Virus record (IMG/VR): IMGVR_UViG_3300025120_000619
Span: 1 to 22,349 of that record
Direction: 5' to 3' (one strand)
Origin: a virus
DNA: 22,349 nt
Part shown: positions 12,244-20,084 of the stretch, in pieces
How the letters are laid out: every line of letters starts with the position of its first letter
Position numbering within the stretch: position 1 is the first letter of the stretch
The notes under the pieces: model-generated
The model's database searches: none
Told to the model about the DNA's origin: nothing
What the model saw: the letters and a program-made list of their open reading frames with translations, nothing else
Made by a program: the position numbers and the translations under genes

Positions 12244-12252
12244 AAACAAGTG

Positions 12253-12291
12253 ATACTATTATAAGGCGGCTTTACGTCGCCTTTATAGTAT
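12253..12291 (+). terminator. Hairpin terminator after the head-associated gene
   Basis: Two stems stack here. 12253-12259 pairs with 12285-12291 (7 bp), and 12263-12270 pairs with 12276-12283 (8 bp, including one G-U). They are separated by a small internal loop, and the apical loop is TTTAC. The inner stem has the GC-rich AAGGCG/CGCCTT core. It starts 9 nt after the stop codon and is followed by a short T run, then A. Because the outer arms carry A and T runs, it might act in both directions, although no gene on the other strand needs it. Confidence 0.75.
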
Positions 12292-13074: not shown

Positions 13075-14301
13075 ATGCCAATTCCAAACGGAGGTTTAAT
13101 AACCGAAACTAATGAACAATATTACGCAGGCGCGCAAGGCTTTAGAGCACTAACCGCAGCAGCAGGTCAATCGTTTGCAACAACTTTTAATACAGACTTA
13201 ATTTTTGGTAGTTTTAATCCTGCTTTACTTAACTATGCTTTAAATAATTTTAAATTATATACTAGTGCTGACGGTGTAACATACGCAGAATATACAGCAG
13301 CTTATACTGTAGTAAATAACACGGTAACAATAACAGGAGCTATTGCTCTTGGAACTTATATAGTAGTTCAATTAAAAGCTTTAGATGGTGGTTCTTATGG
13401 AGCTAGAAATGCTACAGGTGAAACCGTTGAAGAAAACTACGGTGGTTATTCTTATATTACTATCGGTGATATTATAGATAACTTTATGGTTGGTTATGTA
13501 GGTGACGGCAAATTAATACAAACATGTAAAAAATCAGATGTAGTATTTCATGTTAAACGTGGTATGCAAGAATTTAGTTATGATACTTTAAAAAGTATTA
13601 AGTCGCAAGAATTAAATATACCACCAAGTCTAGCTGTTATATTACCACAAGATTATGTTAACTACGTAAGAATATCTTCTATAGATCAACTTGGTGTTAA
13701 ACGTATAATATATCCTGCAAATAATCTTACAATAAGTCCTTATGAAATGCCTTTACAAGATAATGCAGGACAACCAACTCAAGATAATTTTGGTGATAAT
13801 TTAGAAGGAACTTCTATAACTGAAGAAAGATGGGCAAATGCAAATGATAGATTTATAACAGGTACGTTTAATAATGCTAATTTTGAAGCGTTTTTTGATT
13901 TTATGCAAGACGGATATGGGTATGGACTTGATGCTTATGGAAGAAGATATGGTTTAGACCCTGCTTTATCTCAAATTAACGGTTGGTTTAATATGAATGA
14001 AAGAGAAGGTAAAGTAGCTTTTTCTAGTAATCTAGCAAATAGATTAATTGTATTAGAGTATATATCTGATGGACTTGCTTATGATTTAGACAGTAGAGTG
14101 CCTAAGATGGCTGAAGACGCAATGTATTCTCATTTACTATATTCTATATTATCTACAAGAGCTGGAACACCAGAAGGCATAGTTCAACGTTTTAAAAGAG
14201 ATCGTAGTGCAAAGCTTAGAAATGCTAAGATAAGATTATCTAATATTAAGCTTGATGAAATAGTTCAAGTAATGAGAGGTAAATCTAAATGGATAAAATA
14301 A
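13075..14301 (+). CDS. Tail adaptor/tubular-A-like ring protein with an extra N-terminal beta domain
   Basis: The 408-aa protein has two parts. Residues 20-105 form a beta-sandwich-like module (FATTFNTDLIFGSFNPALLN, FKLYTSADGVTY, YTVVNNTVTITGAI, TYIVVQLKALDGG). From about 125 the conserved adaptor begins: ITIGDIIDNFMVGYVGDGK, DVVFHVKRGMQEFSYDTLKS, PPSLAVILPQDYVNYVRIS, then GRRYGLDP and LANRLIVLEYISDGL. It closes with basic helices rich in Arg and Lys (IVQRFKRDRSAKLRNAKIRL, IVQVMRGKSKWIK). The second part matches the tail tubular protein A / ring family that sits between portal and muzzle in podoviruses. It follows the other ring gene by 6 nt and precedes the muzzle gene by 8 nt. The extra N-terminal domain may decorate the neck. 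Confidence 0.72.
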   Translation: MPIPNGGLITETNEQYYAGAQGFRALTAAAGQSFATTFNTDLIFGSFNPALLNYALNNFKLYTSADGVTYAEYTAAYTVVNNTVTITGAIALGTYIVVQLKALDGGSYGARNATGETVEENYGGYSYITIGDIIDNFMVGYVGDGKLIQTCKKSDVVFHVKRGMQEFSYDTLKSIKSQELNIPPSLAVILPQDYVNYVRISSIDQLGVKRIIYPANNLTISPYEMPLQDNAGQPTQDNFGDNLEGTSITEERWANANDRFITGTFNNANFEAFFDFMQDGYGYGLDAYGRRYGLDPALSQINGWFNMNEREGKVAFSSNLANRLIVLEYISDGLAYDLDSRVPKMAEDAMYSHLLYSILSTRAGTPEGIVQRFKRDRSAKLRNAKIRLSNIKLDEIVQVMRGKSKWIK

Positions 14302-14309
14302 TAAACTAG

Positions 14310-17300
14310 ATGGCAAATATTAGTAATAATTTCCTAAAAGGCAAAATGAATAAAGACCTAGATGCTAGGTTGTTGCAAAATGGAGAATATAGAAACGCGA
14401 TCAATGCTCAAGTAAGTAAATCAGAAGGCGCTAATGTTGGTGCTTTAGAAAATGTATTAGGAAATACGTTGCTTCAAGATTTTAATACTTTAACTGGCGT
14501 TACTGGTTTAAAGTCTATTGGATATCTAACTGACGAAATAAATAACACTGTTTATATTTTTCTTACTAATCATCAAGTTAACAAATACGATCCAGGTGCT
14601 AAAAACTTTATAATATCATATAATTCTCTTCAAGACACTTATGTTATTTTAGTGCAAGGAGCTTTTTTAAATTTTTCACAATTAAATCCTATATACGGAG
14701 TTAATATATTAGAAGAACTATTATTCTGGACAGACAACAGAAATCAACCTAGAAAAATAAATGTTGTTAATGCTGGCGTTAGTGGATACTATACAACAGA
14801 AGATCAAATATCTGTAGCAACATATAACCCTTATGAATCTATAGAGCTTTTTCAAATTATAACACCAGCTATGGTAACTGCTAATTCTTCGCTAGCGCCT
14901 GCTGTAAATGATTATCAAACTACTATGTTTGATGTGACTAGTAAATTTTATCCTAACGGTGGATCAGCTTTTAGCGAATTACCAAATCCATTACAAACAG
15001 CTACAGGCCAAACGGTTCCAATATTAGTAAATGATGTTACAGCTGAAGGAAACATTACTTCTGGTATGAGAGTTTCTTATATAGACAATGATGGTGTGAT
15101 GGTTAATACAAATGTAATTGTTGCCACTGCTCCAACTCTTGCAACTAAATCTTTTACTACTAGCGCTAATATACCTGCGTACTCTTCTACTACTACTATT
15201 GAGTTTGTTTTTGAATCTAACCCTTATTATGAAAACGCTTTTAGTGGAGACTCTGAGTTTTTAAAAGACAAATTTGTAAGATTTAGCTACAGGTTTCAAT
15301 TTGATGATAACGAATATTCTATATTTGCTCCGTTTACACAACCAACTTTTATACCAGAACAAGACGGTTATTTTATGTACAATAAAGACTGGCATGATAT
15401 AACTACTCAAACAACAGACGAACAAGATACTTACAGAAGCACTATAGTTGATTTTATGGAAAATAAGGTTACTAAAATAGGACTTAGAATACCTTTACCT
15501 TCTACAAAAGCAACTTTACAAGCACTACACAAAGTAATTGGTATTGATATTCTTTACAAAGAATCTGATGCTTTAGCTGTTAAAGTTGTAGATACAATAC
15601 CTATAGAAAACATAGTAGCGCAAACAGTAGAACCAAATATATTTACTTATAACTATAATTCTAAAAAACCTTTTAAAACATTACCATCCGACGAAATAAC
15701 AAGAGTTTTTGACAAAGTACCTGTAAAAGCTTTTTCACAAGAGATATCTGCTAATAGAGTTATATACGGTAACTTTCAAACTAAACACACGCCACCTGCT
15801 AGCATAGATTATAGCGTTGGGGTTAATTTAAAAGAAGATAACACAGCTACTGTTACTCCTAGAACAATAAATAGTAAGGTTGGTAAATTAGAATATCCAA
15901 GTAGTACATTAAAACAAAACAGAACATATCAAGTTGGTATAGTGTTGTCTGATAGATATGGAAGACAATCAACAGTTATACTTTCAGACCAAGACGCTTC
16001 ACAGGTAAATAGCTCTGAAGACTTTGGAGGATCAACAACTTATACTGGTTATTTAAATAATTCTATTAATAGATCAGGATTTCCGGGTAATGCTTTAAGA
16101 GTGTTGTTTAATCAACCAATTGGACCGTCTCAACCTAACTTAAACACTGGTTGGCCTGGTATATATAATGGAGATAAAACTAATGCTAATTACAATCCTC
16201 TTGGTTGGTTTTCATATAAAATAGTTGTAAAACAACAAGAGCAAGAATATTATAACGTATATCTTCCTGGAGTTTTAGCTGCTTATCCAAATGATAAAAC
16301 ACTAGAATTAGGTAAAACTTCTCATACAGTTTTAATAAATGATAATATAAATAAAGTTCCTAGAGATTTAACTGAAGTAGGTCCAACGCAAAAACAATTT
16401 AGAAGTAGTGTAAATTTGAATGGTAGAGTACAAAATCTTGATTCAAGTCCAAGTACCTCAGGTTTAACAAATACACAGTTTTTTCCAAAAAAAGCTGGGA
16501 GCATTGTAAGTACCATAGCTAGCGACGATGATTTGTTTAATGGAGAAAATATTTTAAATAATTATATTCCAAGTCAAGCTTTCTACAGTATTGATTCTGA
16601 TCCATTTATTGCTAGAATATCTACAACAAAAGAATTTGGAGTTGTGAATACTAATGCTACTAGAATAACTGCTGCTCAAGCTGCTCCAAATACTACAACA
16701 ATTGATTTAAGTCCTGCTGGTGGCGTAGGAGTAATTCAAGTTGGTGATACAGTAACAGGTGGAACTATTGTGCCTGGTACTATTGTTGTTTCAATTACTA
16801 GCGCTACTGTTATAGTAGTTAACAAAGCACAGACTTTAGTAGCTACAACTGAATTAAACTTTCACAAATCAGTTCCAATAGAACGCTTACAAAATTTAGC
16901 AGTTTTTGAAACAAATCCAGTTTTGTCTGAATTAGATATATATTGGGAAACATCAAGTAGTGGATTATTAACAGACTTAAACACAGCTATAATAGAAAAT
17001 AGTTCTGCAACAGCTAATTTAAATGGTTTTAATGCTACTAATTTTAAAGAATCAATAATACCTGGAGTTTCTGAAACACCAGCGTCTAATGGACCTGTTA
17101 TAGGTACAGGTACTTTTAATTTAATAAATCAAGCTGGCGCAGCTATTGTGTATGGAACAGGAACTAATCAAGGAGTTTTAAGTTTAATAAGTGTTTTTGA
17201 TACGCAAAGCACGCCTCAAGACAGATCATCAGAGTTTGTTTTTAATGATAATACATCTGGAAACTATACTATTAGCGTCAAAGGTAGTGTGGCTAATCCT

Positions 17301-18044
17301 TATTATTATTATGGATTTCCAATAGAAGCAAGATCTTTTAGATTTTTATTTCAAAGTGTTGTAAATGGTATTACTCAAACTTTTTATGAAGACGTTACGT
17401 TACAAAACTTAGCTCCAGTTATAACAGGTTGCCCAAGTGGTAATGTTACTTTGACTGGTGGTAATGGTAGTCCTTTTTCAGTTGCAGCTACGTTGTATGC
17501 TGTAAACGGAAGCGCTTACCCATCGAATAAAGCTACAGATTTAACATGGACTTTAACAGAGCCTTCAGGTAATAATTATTTTGATATAACTATTTCTACA
17601 CAAAACAATTATCCAACCACTGGTAACAATGCTTTAAAAGCTATTATAACAGCAAGAACTATTGGTGGTGATCCTCCAAATGGAACTTATCAATTAAGAG
17701 CTAGCGTTGCAGACGCTGGTAATTCTACAGCAGCTTGTATATTTAATGTTATAATCGCTGTACCTGTATGCCAATTTTTATCATCAACATTAGCTAATCC
17801 TTTACCGGATTATGATTTTAACGCTAGCGGAAGCATTCAAATGGTTACTATTGCTTATCAAGATTGTAATGGTATTAATCAAACAGATACAGTAGAAGCA
17901 GACGGTACTCAGTATTGTCAACAAGCGTTAGGATCATCAATGACGTGGACGTTAGTTAATCCACCAGGAAGTATACCGCCTGCAGATAGAACTGGAGTGT
18001 TTAATGCAGTTGTAGCTAGTTGCGGAAGTGGACCAACGCCATAG
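14310..18044 (+). CDS. Tail muzzle / stabilisation-type protein, N-terminal part
   Basis: This 1244-aa protein is the largest product here. It begins NNFLKGKMNKDLDARLLQNG, then EYRNAINAQVSKSEGANVGA, a signature of the podovirus tail closure protein family (crAss-like muzzle; functionally like P22 gp10 or T7 gp12). Beta-propeller-like strands follow (VYIFLTNHQVNKYD, EELLFWTDNRNQPRKINVV). Extra beta modules seem to be inserted at about 240-302 and 785-852 (TIDLSPAGGVGVIQVGDTVT...). Residues 1037-1244 form a Cys-containing Ig-like tail (six Cys at 1041, 1143, 1154, 1186, 1203 and 1238) that ends in CGSGPTP. The propeller motifs expected after this point (YSGIFNSRTG) are instead in the next gene, so it appears to be half of a split protein. 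One antisense frame inside is a shadow. Confidence 0.75.
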   Translation: MANISNNFLKGKMNKDLDARLLQNGEYRNAINAQVSKSEGANVGALENVLGNTLLQDFNTLTGVTGLKSIGYLTDEINNTVYIFLTNHQVNKYDPGAKNFIISYNSLQDTYVILVQGAFLNFSQLNPIYGVNILEELLFWTDNRNQPRKINVVNAGVSGYYTTEDQISVATYNPYESIELFQIITPAMVTANSSLAPAVNDYQTTMFDVTSKFYPNGGSAFSELPNPLQTATGQTVPILVNDVTAEGNITSGMRVSYIDNDGVMVNTNVIVATAPTLATKSFTTSANIPAYSSTTTIEFVFESNPYYENAFSGDSEFLKDKFVRFSYRFQFDDNEYSIFAPFTQPTFIPEQDGYFMYNKDWHDITTQTTDEQDTYRSTIVDFMENKVTKIGLRIPLPSTKATLQALHKVIGIDILYKESDALAVKVVDTIPIENIVAQTVEPNIFTYNYNSKKPFKTLPSDEITRVFDKVPVKAFSQEISANRVIYGNFQTKHTPPASIDYSVGVNLKEDNTATVTPRTINSKVGKLEYPSSTLKQNRTYQVGIVLSDRYGRQSTVILSDQDASQVNSSEDFGGSTTYTGYLNNSINRSGFPGNALRVLFNQPIGPSQPNLNTGWPGIYNGDKTNANYNPLGWFSYKIVVKQQEQEYYNVYLPGVLAAYPNDKTLELGKTSHTVLINDNINKVPRDLTEVGPTQKQFRSSVNLNGRVQNLDSSPSTSGLTNTQFFPKKAGSIVSTIASDDDLFNGENILNNYIPSQAFYSIDSDPFIARISTTKEFGVVNTNATRITAAQAAPNTTTIDLSPAGGVGVIQVGDTVTGGTIVPGTIVVSITSATVIVVNKAQTLVATTELNFHKSVPIERLQNLAVFETNPVLSELDIYWETSSSGLLTDLNTAIIENSSATANLNGFNATNFKESIIPGVSETPASNGPVIGTGTFNLINQAGAAIVYGTGTNQGVLSLISVFDTQSTPQDRSSEFVFNDNTSGNYTISVKGSVANPYYYYGFPIEARSFRFLFQSVVNGITQTFYEDVTLQNLAPVITGCPSGNVTLTGGNGSPFSVAATLYAVNGSAYPSNKATDLTWTLTEPSGNNYFDITISTQNNYPTTGNNALKAIITARTIGGDPPNGTYQLRASVADAGNSTAACIFNVIIAVPVCQFLSSTLANPLPDYDFNASGSIQMVTIAYQDCNGINQTDTVEADGTQYCQQALGSSMTWTLVNPPGSIPPADRTGVFNAVVASCGSGPTP

Positions 18045-18082
18045 TTAAAAACAAAAAAAACAAGTAATAATATTAATATAAC

Positions 18083-19624
18083 ATGGGAGTAGTAGTAGAA
18101 GTTAAATACTTTAACAGTTTTTTATTAAGAAAAACTATGACAAACAGCCAACCATCACCTGGTCCAAATATGGCACCGGTATGGAATGGTTCTTTTGGTA
18201 TACCTAAAACTATTGGTGGTTTTAACGTTTATTCTACAACTATTGCTTCACCTGAAAATGTTAACAACTGGATAATAGAAGAAGCAAGGATAAGAGGTGG
18301 TTATAATAATACATCTGTAGATTTTGGAGTAAAAGCTTATCTTGTAGAAAACGAACCAAATTCTTCAGTAAGAAGTAACACACTTATATATTCAGGTATA
18401 TTTAATTCTAGAACAGGTGTTAATGATACTAATGTTTTTCCAGTTGGTCAAGACATCACAAAAAGTGCTGATCCTGCAAATGGATCAATACAAAAACTTT
18501 ACGCTGAAGACAGTAATCTAGTTATATTTCAAGAAAACAAAATAAGCAGAGCATTAGTTAATAAAAGTGCTATTTATTCTGCTGAAGGAAACGCAACAGT
18601 AACTTCTTCTAATTTAACTATAGGTGTTATACAGCCTTTTCCTGGTCAATACGGTATAAGCAGAAACCCTGAAAGTTTTGCTGTTTATGGTTACGATAAA
18701 TATTTTGCAGATGAAAACAATAATGTTATGTTAAAGTTATCAGGTGGATCTGTAAGAGAAATATCAGGAGAAGGTATGACTGATTTTTTCAGAGATACTT
18801 TAAATTCTATAAATCAACCACAGTCTGCTGGTTTTGTTCAAGGTGGTTGGGACATACATAATAAACAATACGTTGTTTCTTTATATAGAAATCCAATACA
18901 ATTTCCTACAGCATCATTTTCAACATTAGCTTATGGTCAATCAATAGGTGGTGGAGAAGGTTGGTCAACTTTTTATAGTTTTAAACCTGATCAAATGCTT
19001 AGCTTAAGAGATAAGTTATACACACTTAAAAACGGACAATTATGGCAGCATTATTCTACAGTATCTACTGCACTGCGTGGTAATTTTTATGGAGTATCTA
19101 CACCTAGTTCAATAACTTTTGTTTTTAATCCTCAACCTAATTATTCTAAAACCTTTAAGACAATATCTTACGAAGGAAGTAGCGGTTGGCAAGTTAATAG
19201 CATTATAAGTGATTCTACAGGTGAAGATCTTTTAAGTGGAGTTCAATATCAAGAAACGCAAGACGAAACAGTAAACTCATCATATGATTCATCAGAACCT
19301 ACTATTGTATCTCCTGCTACATTACCACCTTCAATTTACAGTTATCAACAAGGTCAATATGATGCATTGGGTAACGAATATCCTCAAGCTTTAACTCCAC
19401 CAATATTGCGAGCAGGTTTTGATAGAAAAGAAAATAAATACGTTGCAAATCTAATAAATAATAGTGTAGTATCTACAGGTGAAATTGTTTTCGGTGGTGC
19501 AATGAGTGGCATAAAAGGTTATTATTCTACAGTTACTATATCTACTGACAATACAACAAACGTAGGTGGTGAAAAAGAATTATTTAACGTTGGTTCAACA
19601 TATGTAATGAACAGCGGATATTAA
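18083..19624 (+). CDS. Tail muzzle-like protein, C-terminal propeller part
   Basis: The 513-aa protein starts 38 nt after the 1244-aa gene, in another frame. Its N-terminus (VKYFNSFLLRK) is followed by NNWIIEEARIRGGYNNTSVD, NTLIYSGIFNSRTGVNDTNV, DPANGSIQKLYAEDSNLVIF and SAIYSAEGNATVTSSNLTIG. GISRNPESFAVYGYDKYFAD and GMTDFFRDTLNS come next. These repeated strand patterns are those of the beta-propeller in phage stabilisation/muzzle proteins, where I recall them within one long chain with the preceding part. It would assemble with that part to plug the tail and open on infection. The C-terminal ~120 residues are less conserved-looking and Ser/Asn-rich. ATG 18083 is preferred over the internal ATG at 18137 because YFNSFLLRK looks conserved. 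Confidence 0.72.
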   Translation: MGVVVEVKYFNSFLLRKTMTNSQPSPGPNMAPVWNGSFGIPKTIGGFNVYSTTIASPENVNNWIIEEARIRGGYNNTSVDFGVKAYLVENEPNSSVRSNTLIYSGIFNSRTGVNDTNVFPVGQDITKSADPANGSIQKLYAEDSNLVIFQENKISRALVNKSAIYSAEGNATVTSSNLTIGVIQPFPGQYGISRNPESFAVYGYDKYFADENNNVMLKLSGGSVREISGEGMTDFFRDTLNSINQPQSAGFVQGGWDIHNKQYVVSLYRNPIQFPTASFSTLAYGQSIGGGEGWSTFYSFKPDQMLSLRDKLYTLKNGQLWQHYSTVSTALRGNFYGVSTPSSITFVFNPQPNYSKTFKTISYEGSSGWQVNSIISDSTGEDLLSGVQYQETQDETVNSSYDSSEPTIVSPATLPPSIYSYQQGQYDALGNEYPQALTPPILRAGFDRKENKYVANLINNSVVSTGEIVFGGAMSGIKGYYSTVTISTDNTTNVGGEKELFNVGSTYVMNSGY

Positions 19625-19639
19625 ATTAAATTAAATGAA
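19622..19639 (+). repeat. Identical stop-to-start junction, copy 1
   Basis: TAAATTAAATTAAATGAA spans the stop codon of the muzzle-like gene (TAA 19622-19624) and the ATG (19635) of the cupin gene. The same 18 bases recur at 21853-21870, again from stop codon to two bases past the start codon, with the same 10-nt gap. It likely reflects a reused translation-initiation module built of AAATT pentamers. Confidence 0.7.
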
Positions 19640-20084
19640 ATTAAAAAACATTGAAAGCATCGAAGCTTTAAAAGATGTTATGTTTAAAGGTGATGAAAAA
19701 AATGGATTTTATGGAGATGGAAAAAGCATAGCAACAATACCAGAAATACCAATAAAACATAGTTTTGCAGATCAATTATATGTAAGACAAATGAATTTAA
19801 AAAAAGATCAAGTGATAGTAGGTGCTGTTCATAATCATTTACATGTTTGGTTTTTACTAACAGGTAAAGTTATTATAAATAATAATGGTGAAAAAATAGA
19901 ACACATAGCGCCATGCTACACAGTGTCTAAACCAGGGTCACAAAGAATTATATTAGCTCTTGAAGATTCTATATTTGTAAACGTTCACAAGAACCCTACA
20001 AATATTAAAAACATACCTGAATTAGAAAAAGAAATAGTCTCAATGACAATAGAAGAATATAACATTAAATATAAAAATATATGA
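19635..20084 (+). CDS. Cupin-fold protein in the tail operon
   Basis: The 149-aa protein has a single cupin barrel. Strand YVRQMNLKKDQVIVGAVHNH leads into HxH at H66/H68 (H70 also possible), then VWFLLTGKVIINNNGEKI with the conserved Gly, PCYTVSKPGSQRII with the PGS turn, and SIFVNVHKNP with H118. The canonical second-motif His after PxG is replaced by Arg, and the first-motif Glu is missing. A full three-His-one-Glu metal site is therefore doubtful; H66, H68 and H118 could still hold a metal. No partner enzyme genes are near, and it overlaps the next virion gene by 4 nt, so a structural or sugar-binding role is as likely as catalysis. It starts behind a TTAAATTAAATTAA leader right after the muzzle stop. 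Confidence 0.78.
   Translation: MKLKNIESIEALKDVMFKGDEKNGFYGDGKSIATIPEIPIKHSFADQLYVRQMNLKKDQVIVGAVHNHLHVWFLLTGKVIINNNGEKIEHIAPCYTVSKPGSQRIILALEDSIFVNVHKNPTNIKNIPELEKEIVSMTIEEYNIKYKNI

Follow-up and report, generated by a model that had tools for sequence, protein, structure and literature searches.

Can the muzzle, the conserved gate of crAss-like phage tails, be made of two polypeptides instead of one? The question is raised by a 22,349-base stretch of viral DNA (positions 1–22,349 of IMG/VR record IMGVR_UViG_3300025120_000619; hereafter the window), in which two open reading frames (ORFs), here called MUZ-N and MUZ-C, follow each other in different frames with 38 nucleotides (nt) between them. 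Our comparisons support the view that MUZ-N and MUZ-C are consecutive parts of one crAss-like muzzle, and the homologue of gp44 of phiCrAss001 (PDB 7qok, 7qol; PMC10172136) is the pair of chains, neither chain alone. A sequence-only reading of the window had placed a muzzle signature at the N-terminus of the first protein and the downstream motifs in a separate gene, 38 nt on and in another frame. Both placements hold: MUZ-N has the N-terminal motifs at residues 11 and 26, and MUZ-C has the later, propeller motifs at residues 71, 103 and 130.

The two products match full-length muzzles in consecutive order. In phrog_14478 (1474 positions) MUZ-N matches from position 2 (E 3.8e-40) and MUZ-C matches 923–1225 (E 9.1e-36). 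MUZ-C scores 54 bits with the Pfam family crAss_MUZ_C (PF25729), whose cut-off is 27. Alignments of 56 MUZ-N proteins and 62 MUZ-C proteins were used as hhalign queries. On the single-chain gp097 of phage phi38:1, MUZ-N maps to residues 1–400 and MUZ-C to 875–1174 (probability 100% each); on gp44 they map to 1–150 (92%) and 1034–1292 (97%). This alignment to full-length muzzles had been proposed as a check by the sequence-only reading, and both products fall consecutively on gp097 and on gp44.

The chains were also modelled with AlphaFold2 (AF2), each separately and not as a co-fold. The best Foldseek match of the MUZ-C model (mean predicted local distance difference test score, pLDDT, 75) is gp44, with E 2.6e-14, and in VIA it aligns to 7qol_P with Z 15.9 and a root-mean-square deviation (rmsd) of 3.4 over 299 aligned residues. 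The matched range starts at gp44 residue 132 and some blades are matched out of register, so that the order of the chains is taken from the sequence comparison. Searches of PDB sequences with phmmer and with the MUZ-C profile gave no match at E up to 1; gp44 was reached among PDB entries only by comparison of folds. The MUZ-N model covers residues 1–1200 of 1244 (mean pLDDT 77), and its residues 53–891 align to gp44 54–934 (VIA; Z 11.8, rmsd 4.8, 359 aligned). Both products map to one fold, contrary to the possibility that the two genes might not represent consecutive parts of it.

Several observations weigh against this assignment. By hhalign the chain-1 alignment reached residues 1–150 of gp44 only. 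The best 50 Foldseek matches of MUZ-N are other beta proteins, chiefly cadherins, with gp44 absent, and the match to gp44 surfaced only in the second look with VIA. Model confidence is low over residues 1–51 of chain 1 and 1–120 of chain 2. Such low confidence fits stretches that need the partner chain, although shallow alignments could equally produce it.

Could MUZ-C be a separate virion protein with a place of its own, outside the body of the muzzle? It has its own leader, and in some loci another gene parts it from MUZ-N. Yet no second copy of the missing part was found in MUZ-N, and in the 127 split loci described below the MUZ-C profile matches the second ORF only; moreover the equivalent segment is propeller in single-chain relatives. 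We consider a separate role very unlikely. The pair has the traits of the muzzle family, with sequence homology along the chain, the muzzle fold and a gene beside the ring and head genes. A single chain is typical of the family but not defining, being absent from the window pair and from the cultured phage phi18:3 alike, and as this trait is lacking we file the pair as a variant of the crAss-like muzzle (gp44 family, phrog_14478, PF25729).

Where does the chain break? The domain names IG1, IG2 and crass domain are those of the accessible text of the gp44 paper (PMC10172136). By comparison with gp44, the core of chain 1 would contain the ring-joining part, the first blades of the propeller, IG1, the crass domain and IG2 except for its end, which chain 2 contains together with the remaining beta-propeller. 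The last conserved core segment is FETNPVLSELDIYWETSSSGLLTDLN, and the same motif precedes the loop in single-chain muzzles. There a segment FETxP...DIFYET leads through a short loop to the strand YFNCF-FGNG-VES. The core part of chain 1 ends at about residue 891–897, and MUZ-C starts as MGVVVEVKYFNSF, that is at the core strand, with the core back within ten residues of its ATG. The equivalent loop of gp44 is at about residues 980–998, held within an insertion (940–1012) between IG2 strands G and H according to the same text. Since the cut maps to this loop and the insert lies before the stop, the remark of the sequence-only reading that the split sits at an added surface domain proves exact: the core ends at 891–897, some 350 amino acids (aa) are extra, and the strand resumes in chain 2.

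The extension of chain 1, residues 898–1244, has no counterpart at the same place in short-loop relatives. Its immunoglobulin (Ig)/cadherin-like region gives VIA-align rows with Z about 8.6–9.7 and rmsd mostly 6.5–11; the best local fit is that of MUZ-N 1034–1152 to the GspB Siglec domain (Z 8.9, rmsd 2.6, 100 aligned). The six Cys of the two proteins together all lie within MUZ-N 1041–1238, and with the fold matches they bear out the Cys-rich Ig-like tail seen earlier at the end of the first protein. The extension evolves faster than the core, with ratios of nonsynonymous to synonymous substitution rates (dN/dS) of 0.21–0.66 versus 0.12–0.32. For MUZ-C the range is 0.11–0.27, and both muzzle genes are under purifying selection.

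A single muzzle might still be made if read-through, frameshifting or bypassing joined the two frames. Both products belong to a single fold, and in the 127 split pairs the genes usually lie within about 40 nt of each other, but the gap has stops in all frames. Read-through of the TAG at 18042 adds 15 codons, as had been noted, and then meets three consecutive TAGs, not the double TAG reported; in the MUZ-C frame three TAAs separate the end of MUZ-N from the ATG of MUZ-C, and stops also block the third frame. With stops in every frame of the gap no single recoding event can join MUZ-N to MUZ-C, as programmed recoding would demand, and the earlier conclusion that read-through cannot connect the genes stands. 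Over the 127 loci the relative frames are distributed 46/42/39, with gaps of –1 to 528 nt (median 32). Another ORF, of 129–159 aa, intervenes in loci L093, L108, L138, L163 and L134, and MUZ-C is marked by a leader motif. Joined expression can be dismissed for practical purposes.

How widespread is the split? Loci were fetched with MUZ-N, MUZ-C, the phi38:1 muzzle, MUZ-C in bacterial genomes, and capsid and ring alignments. From 339 sequences, 301 had a profile match, of which 240 were readable on both sides and 61 incomplete. Removal of identical chains left 211 loci: 127 split here, 81 contiguous and 3 broken elsewhere. MUZ-C starts with ATG in all 127, and the core strand stands at chain-2 residues 7–10 in all 127. 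Because muzzle queries favour the kin of the window, a capsid-based fetch was added. The window capsid protein retrieved 80 loci, and the 24 informative ones are all split, counting L414, in which MUZ-C is broken; of the others, 41 stop short of MUZ-N, 13 are cut off within it and 2 are uninformative. In a tree of capsid proteins the split is one change, with 43 split rows on a single side of a branch (support 100/94). When the sister group is added the split side has 15 rows (100/98); L004 and L280, long branches on the larger capsid tree, were left out of both. On the sequences compared, the split is fixed in one clade and not peculiar to the window phage, and a split muzzle is common to a large group of aquatic crAss-like phages. 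Cultured relatives outside the clade, phages of Cellulophaga, Flavobacterium and Bacteroides, are contiguous at this site. The view that the family has one chain is right for cultured homologues here, but misses a second break elsewhere in the protein.

These numbers bear also on the prospect that the break is a sequencing or assembly error, or a gene in decay. Such breaks exist, in L003 (phage Panino), in L414 and in L072, whose MUZ-C looks broken and which remains among the 127. The same architecture in 127 deduplicated loci and dN/dS well below 1 in both genes refute error or decay at the window locus, and the chance that either explains it is negligible. Panino (L003, 5403–9316) had been tallied as split in an early count of 125 loci (121 split, 4 fused) and was excluded, since its homology crosses the gap and carries on in the next frame; the annotated break in its muzzle is frameshift-like.

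What lies at this site, site 1, in single-chain muzzles? From the conserved anchor to re-entry into the core there are 17–129 aa in 67 single-chain loci, and from the anchor to the stop of chain 1 there are 115–943 aa (median 434.5) in 128 split loci, where the window has 347; 16 chains had no anchor in this measurement, and the 128 include L307 or L312 where matched. A sister group was fetched with the muzzle of L308. Among its 74 deduplicated loci, 70 have one chain and 4 have two chains broken elsewhere. The same loop holds 12–239 aa in-line in 59 measured chains (44 of them at least 83), four of which belong to two-chain muzzles that are contiguous at site 1. The series from short loop, through in-line insert, to insert with break points to insertion, then fission just downstream.

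We therefore consider it very probable that domain insertion followed by gene fission gave rise to a muzzle of two chains. This scenario is directly supported by the consecutive homology and fold, the cut point, fixation in a clade, the in-line inserts of the sisters and purifying selection. An ancestor would have acquired a surface domain in the loop of the IG2/crass region corresponding to gp44 about 980–998, and the gene would then have broken directly downstream of it. The insert would so have become the free C-terminus of chain 1, while chain 2 acquired its own ATG and leader. Chain 1 would contribute the start of the propeller, IG1, the crass domain and the larger part of IG2, and chain 2 would finish IG2 and supply the other blades; with the propeller shared in this way, neither chain would close it alone. 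Both chains would be present in the virion of the window phage and would assemble together, presumably in six copies each by analogy with gp44. The chain-1 extension may point outward at the tip of the tail and touch the host surface.

The muzzle is also divided at a second place. This site 2 is cut in 44 loci. Their first ORF follows the muzzle as far as about position 266 of the MUZ-C profile and then runs on for 29–1278 residues. The second gene, of 241–293 aa where complete, resumes at profile position 267–275, and does so by its eighth residue in every locus except one; the gap between the genes is –16 to 5309 nt. Without deduplication the counts are 44 split, 21 contiguous (L291 and L334 resting on weak extra matches) and 22 unresolved. 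In 11 single-chain sister loci 123–250 residues stand in-line at this site. To place the S2 label on the larger capsid tree takes 15 changes, and some rows there may be misread, so that a single origin of the site 2 split is not shown. Between the extensions of site 1 and those of site 2 no match was seen at E 1e-4, and we make no claim that the same domains are used. We regard site 2 as an independent parallel to the split at site 1. As a separate observation, in L198, L216, L218, L244, L330 and L337 an extension of the site 2 type is a separate gene after chain 1.

The site 2 split occurs in four cultured Cellulophaga phages of the Pachyviridae, phi18:3, phi13:2, phi19:3 and phi46:3; the MUZ-C profile was run on phi13:2 and phi19:3. 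In the record of phi18:3 (KC821620) gp114 and gp115 are both annotated 'based on experimental MS/MS proteomics analysis' (MS/MS, tandem mass spectrometry), and thus both halves of one split muzzle are reported from virions. As support for the window pair this is tempered, being a database note that concerns the other split site and another phage. In the accessible literature the phi18:3 pieces are not recognised as a split muzzle.

Was the break of any value? Propellers and Ig domains tolerate cuts in their loops. A neutral fission could have struck a tolerant loop, leaving assembly unchanged, with the insert unrelated and no functional benefit, and further breaks do exist, in L307, in L312 and in the 4 of 74 sister loci. 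Against this, the first chain is usually extended long at the break at both main sites, and single-chain relatives have in-line inserts at the same two loops. Extensions and inserts tie the break to the insert, without showing a benefit. We think neutral fission rather unlikely. Equally tentative is the proposal that the break is useful: the free C-terminus of chain 1 would make the crass-domain loop an open slot for fast-evolving surface domains at the tail tip; with propeller and IG2 needing a second chain for their completion, the muzzle could separate or slide apart where the two chains meet as the gate opens; and this state would have been reached at least twice by insertion-then-fission, at two loops. 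Other break sites were seen in L307 (10955–20117), where the muzzle apparently has three chains, in L312 (1929–6949), and in L431, L432, L451 and L488.

How does the pair compare with known gates? Like gp44, as far as the accessible text describes it, it shows consecutive sequence and fold matches and follows a ring gene; gp44 is however one chain of 1371 aa, whereas the window encodes two, with an addition of about 350 aa where they part. The closest cultured protein by muzzle sequence is gp097 of phi38:1 (Pervagoviridae; 1324 aa), with the same neighbours on both sides; it too is a single chain, in which 48 residues separate the FET motif from the YxN strand, where chain 1 of the window has hundreds. 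Phi18:3 (gp114 and gp115), phi13:2, phi19:3 and phi46:3 resemble the window in that their muzzle is two chains and the core resumes at the start of the second, but their cut is at about 268/274 of the MUZ-C profile, giving 1612–1613 plus 241 aa against 1244 plus 513. The nozzle proteins of podoviruses, such as P22 gp10, T7 gp12 and that of SU10, are likewise propeller-bearing tail proteins, to which the MUZ-C model aligns with Z 10.8 (P22) and 9.3 (T7). They differ in being listed as single chains, and lack the crass domain according to the accessible text of PMC10172136. A literature search on muzzle and nozzle proteins, in which subscription journals were thinly covered, found no split muzzle described.

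A two-chain gate reached by two different cuts would show a large tail protein gaining surface domains and then dividing. The natural cut points are useful for the study of gate opening, and assembly can already be tested in the cultured Cellulophaga phages that carry the other type of split. There is also a risk for genome annotation, that half of a muzzle is overlooked or labelled unknown. The features of the locus are collected in Table 1.

Table 1. Features at the split muzzle locus, in window coordinates.
Feature	Position	Strand	Remarks
Upstream structural gene	13075..14301	+	phrog_13977, E 3.9e-42
MUZ-N, chain 1 of split muzzle	14310..18044	+	ORF, 1244 aa
Muzzle core of chain 1, residues 1–897	14310..17000	+	AF2/VIA match to gp44; conserved anchor ends at residue 897
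Last conserved core segment of chain 1, FETNPVLSELDIYWETSSSGLLTDLN, residues 866–891	16905..16982	+	
C-terminal extension of chain 1, residues 898–1244, 347 aa	17001..18041	+	
Tandem Ig/cadherin-like domains, residues about 900–1152	17007..17765	+	VIA matches
Chain 1 tail, residues 1153–1244	17766..18041	+	four of six Cys: 1154, 1186, 1203, 1238
Intergenic leader, 38 nt	18045..18082	+	stops in all three frames
Leader element ACAAGTAATAATA, AT-rich	18060..18072	+	exact match
MUZ-C, chain 2 of split muzzle	18083..19624	+	ORF, 513 aa
VKYFNSF strand	18101..18121	+	core resumes, 7 residues into chain 2

A motif related to the leader element is found no more than 32 nt from MUZ-C in 54 of 69 representative loci, ahead of none of the 69 MUZ-N genes and of 16 of 445 other ORFs. 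Candidate roles are a promoter, a processing site or a ribosome site. A variant lies at window 12246–12258, ahead of the first ring gene, and in the relatives L098, L100 and L120 a hairpin-like repeat follows the ring-gene variant. The intervening ORF of L093, L108, L138 and L163 is nucleotidyltransferase-like by eye (LYLVGG...DIDICMIG); that of L134, of 145 aa, is unrelated to it.

By its gene content the window reads as the head-to-tail gene cassette from a crAss-like phage of aquatic origin, in the order terminase, portal, scaffold-like, capsid, ring-like genes and muzzle, which is that of phi38:1. The gene just upstream of the muzzle probably encodes a tail ring or neck protein, judged by its profile match, and its type also adjoins the muzzle upstream in phi38:1 and Elemovirus; close to its N-terminus the protein has about 100 residues more than its counterparts in five cultured relatives. 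After the muzzle genes comes a 149-aa protein (19635–20084) that is cupin-like by eye, with no match in Pfam. As regards a place in Crassvirales proper, the capsid protein gives no significant match to the Crassvirus-type major capsid family PF23898 (E 0.083, 11.7 bits, cut-off 27) or, by hhalign, to crAss001 gp32 (E 0.039, probability 1.3). The nearest cultured phages are those of Pervagoviridae, Elemovirus and Pachyviridae. Contigs of the same kind of phage (L174, L175 and L180) are found in bins named Ilumatobacteraceae, Woesearchaeota and Pelagibacter, which are probably misbinned, since the remaining bins are Bacteroidota.

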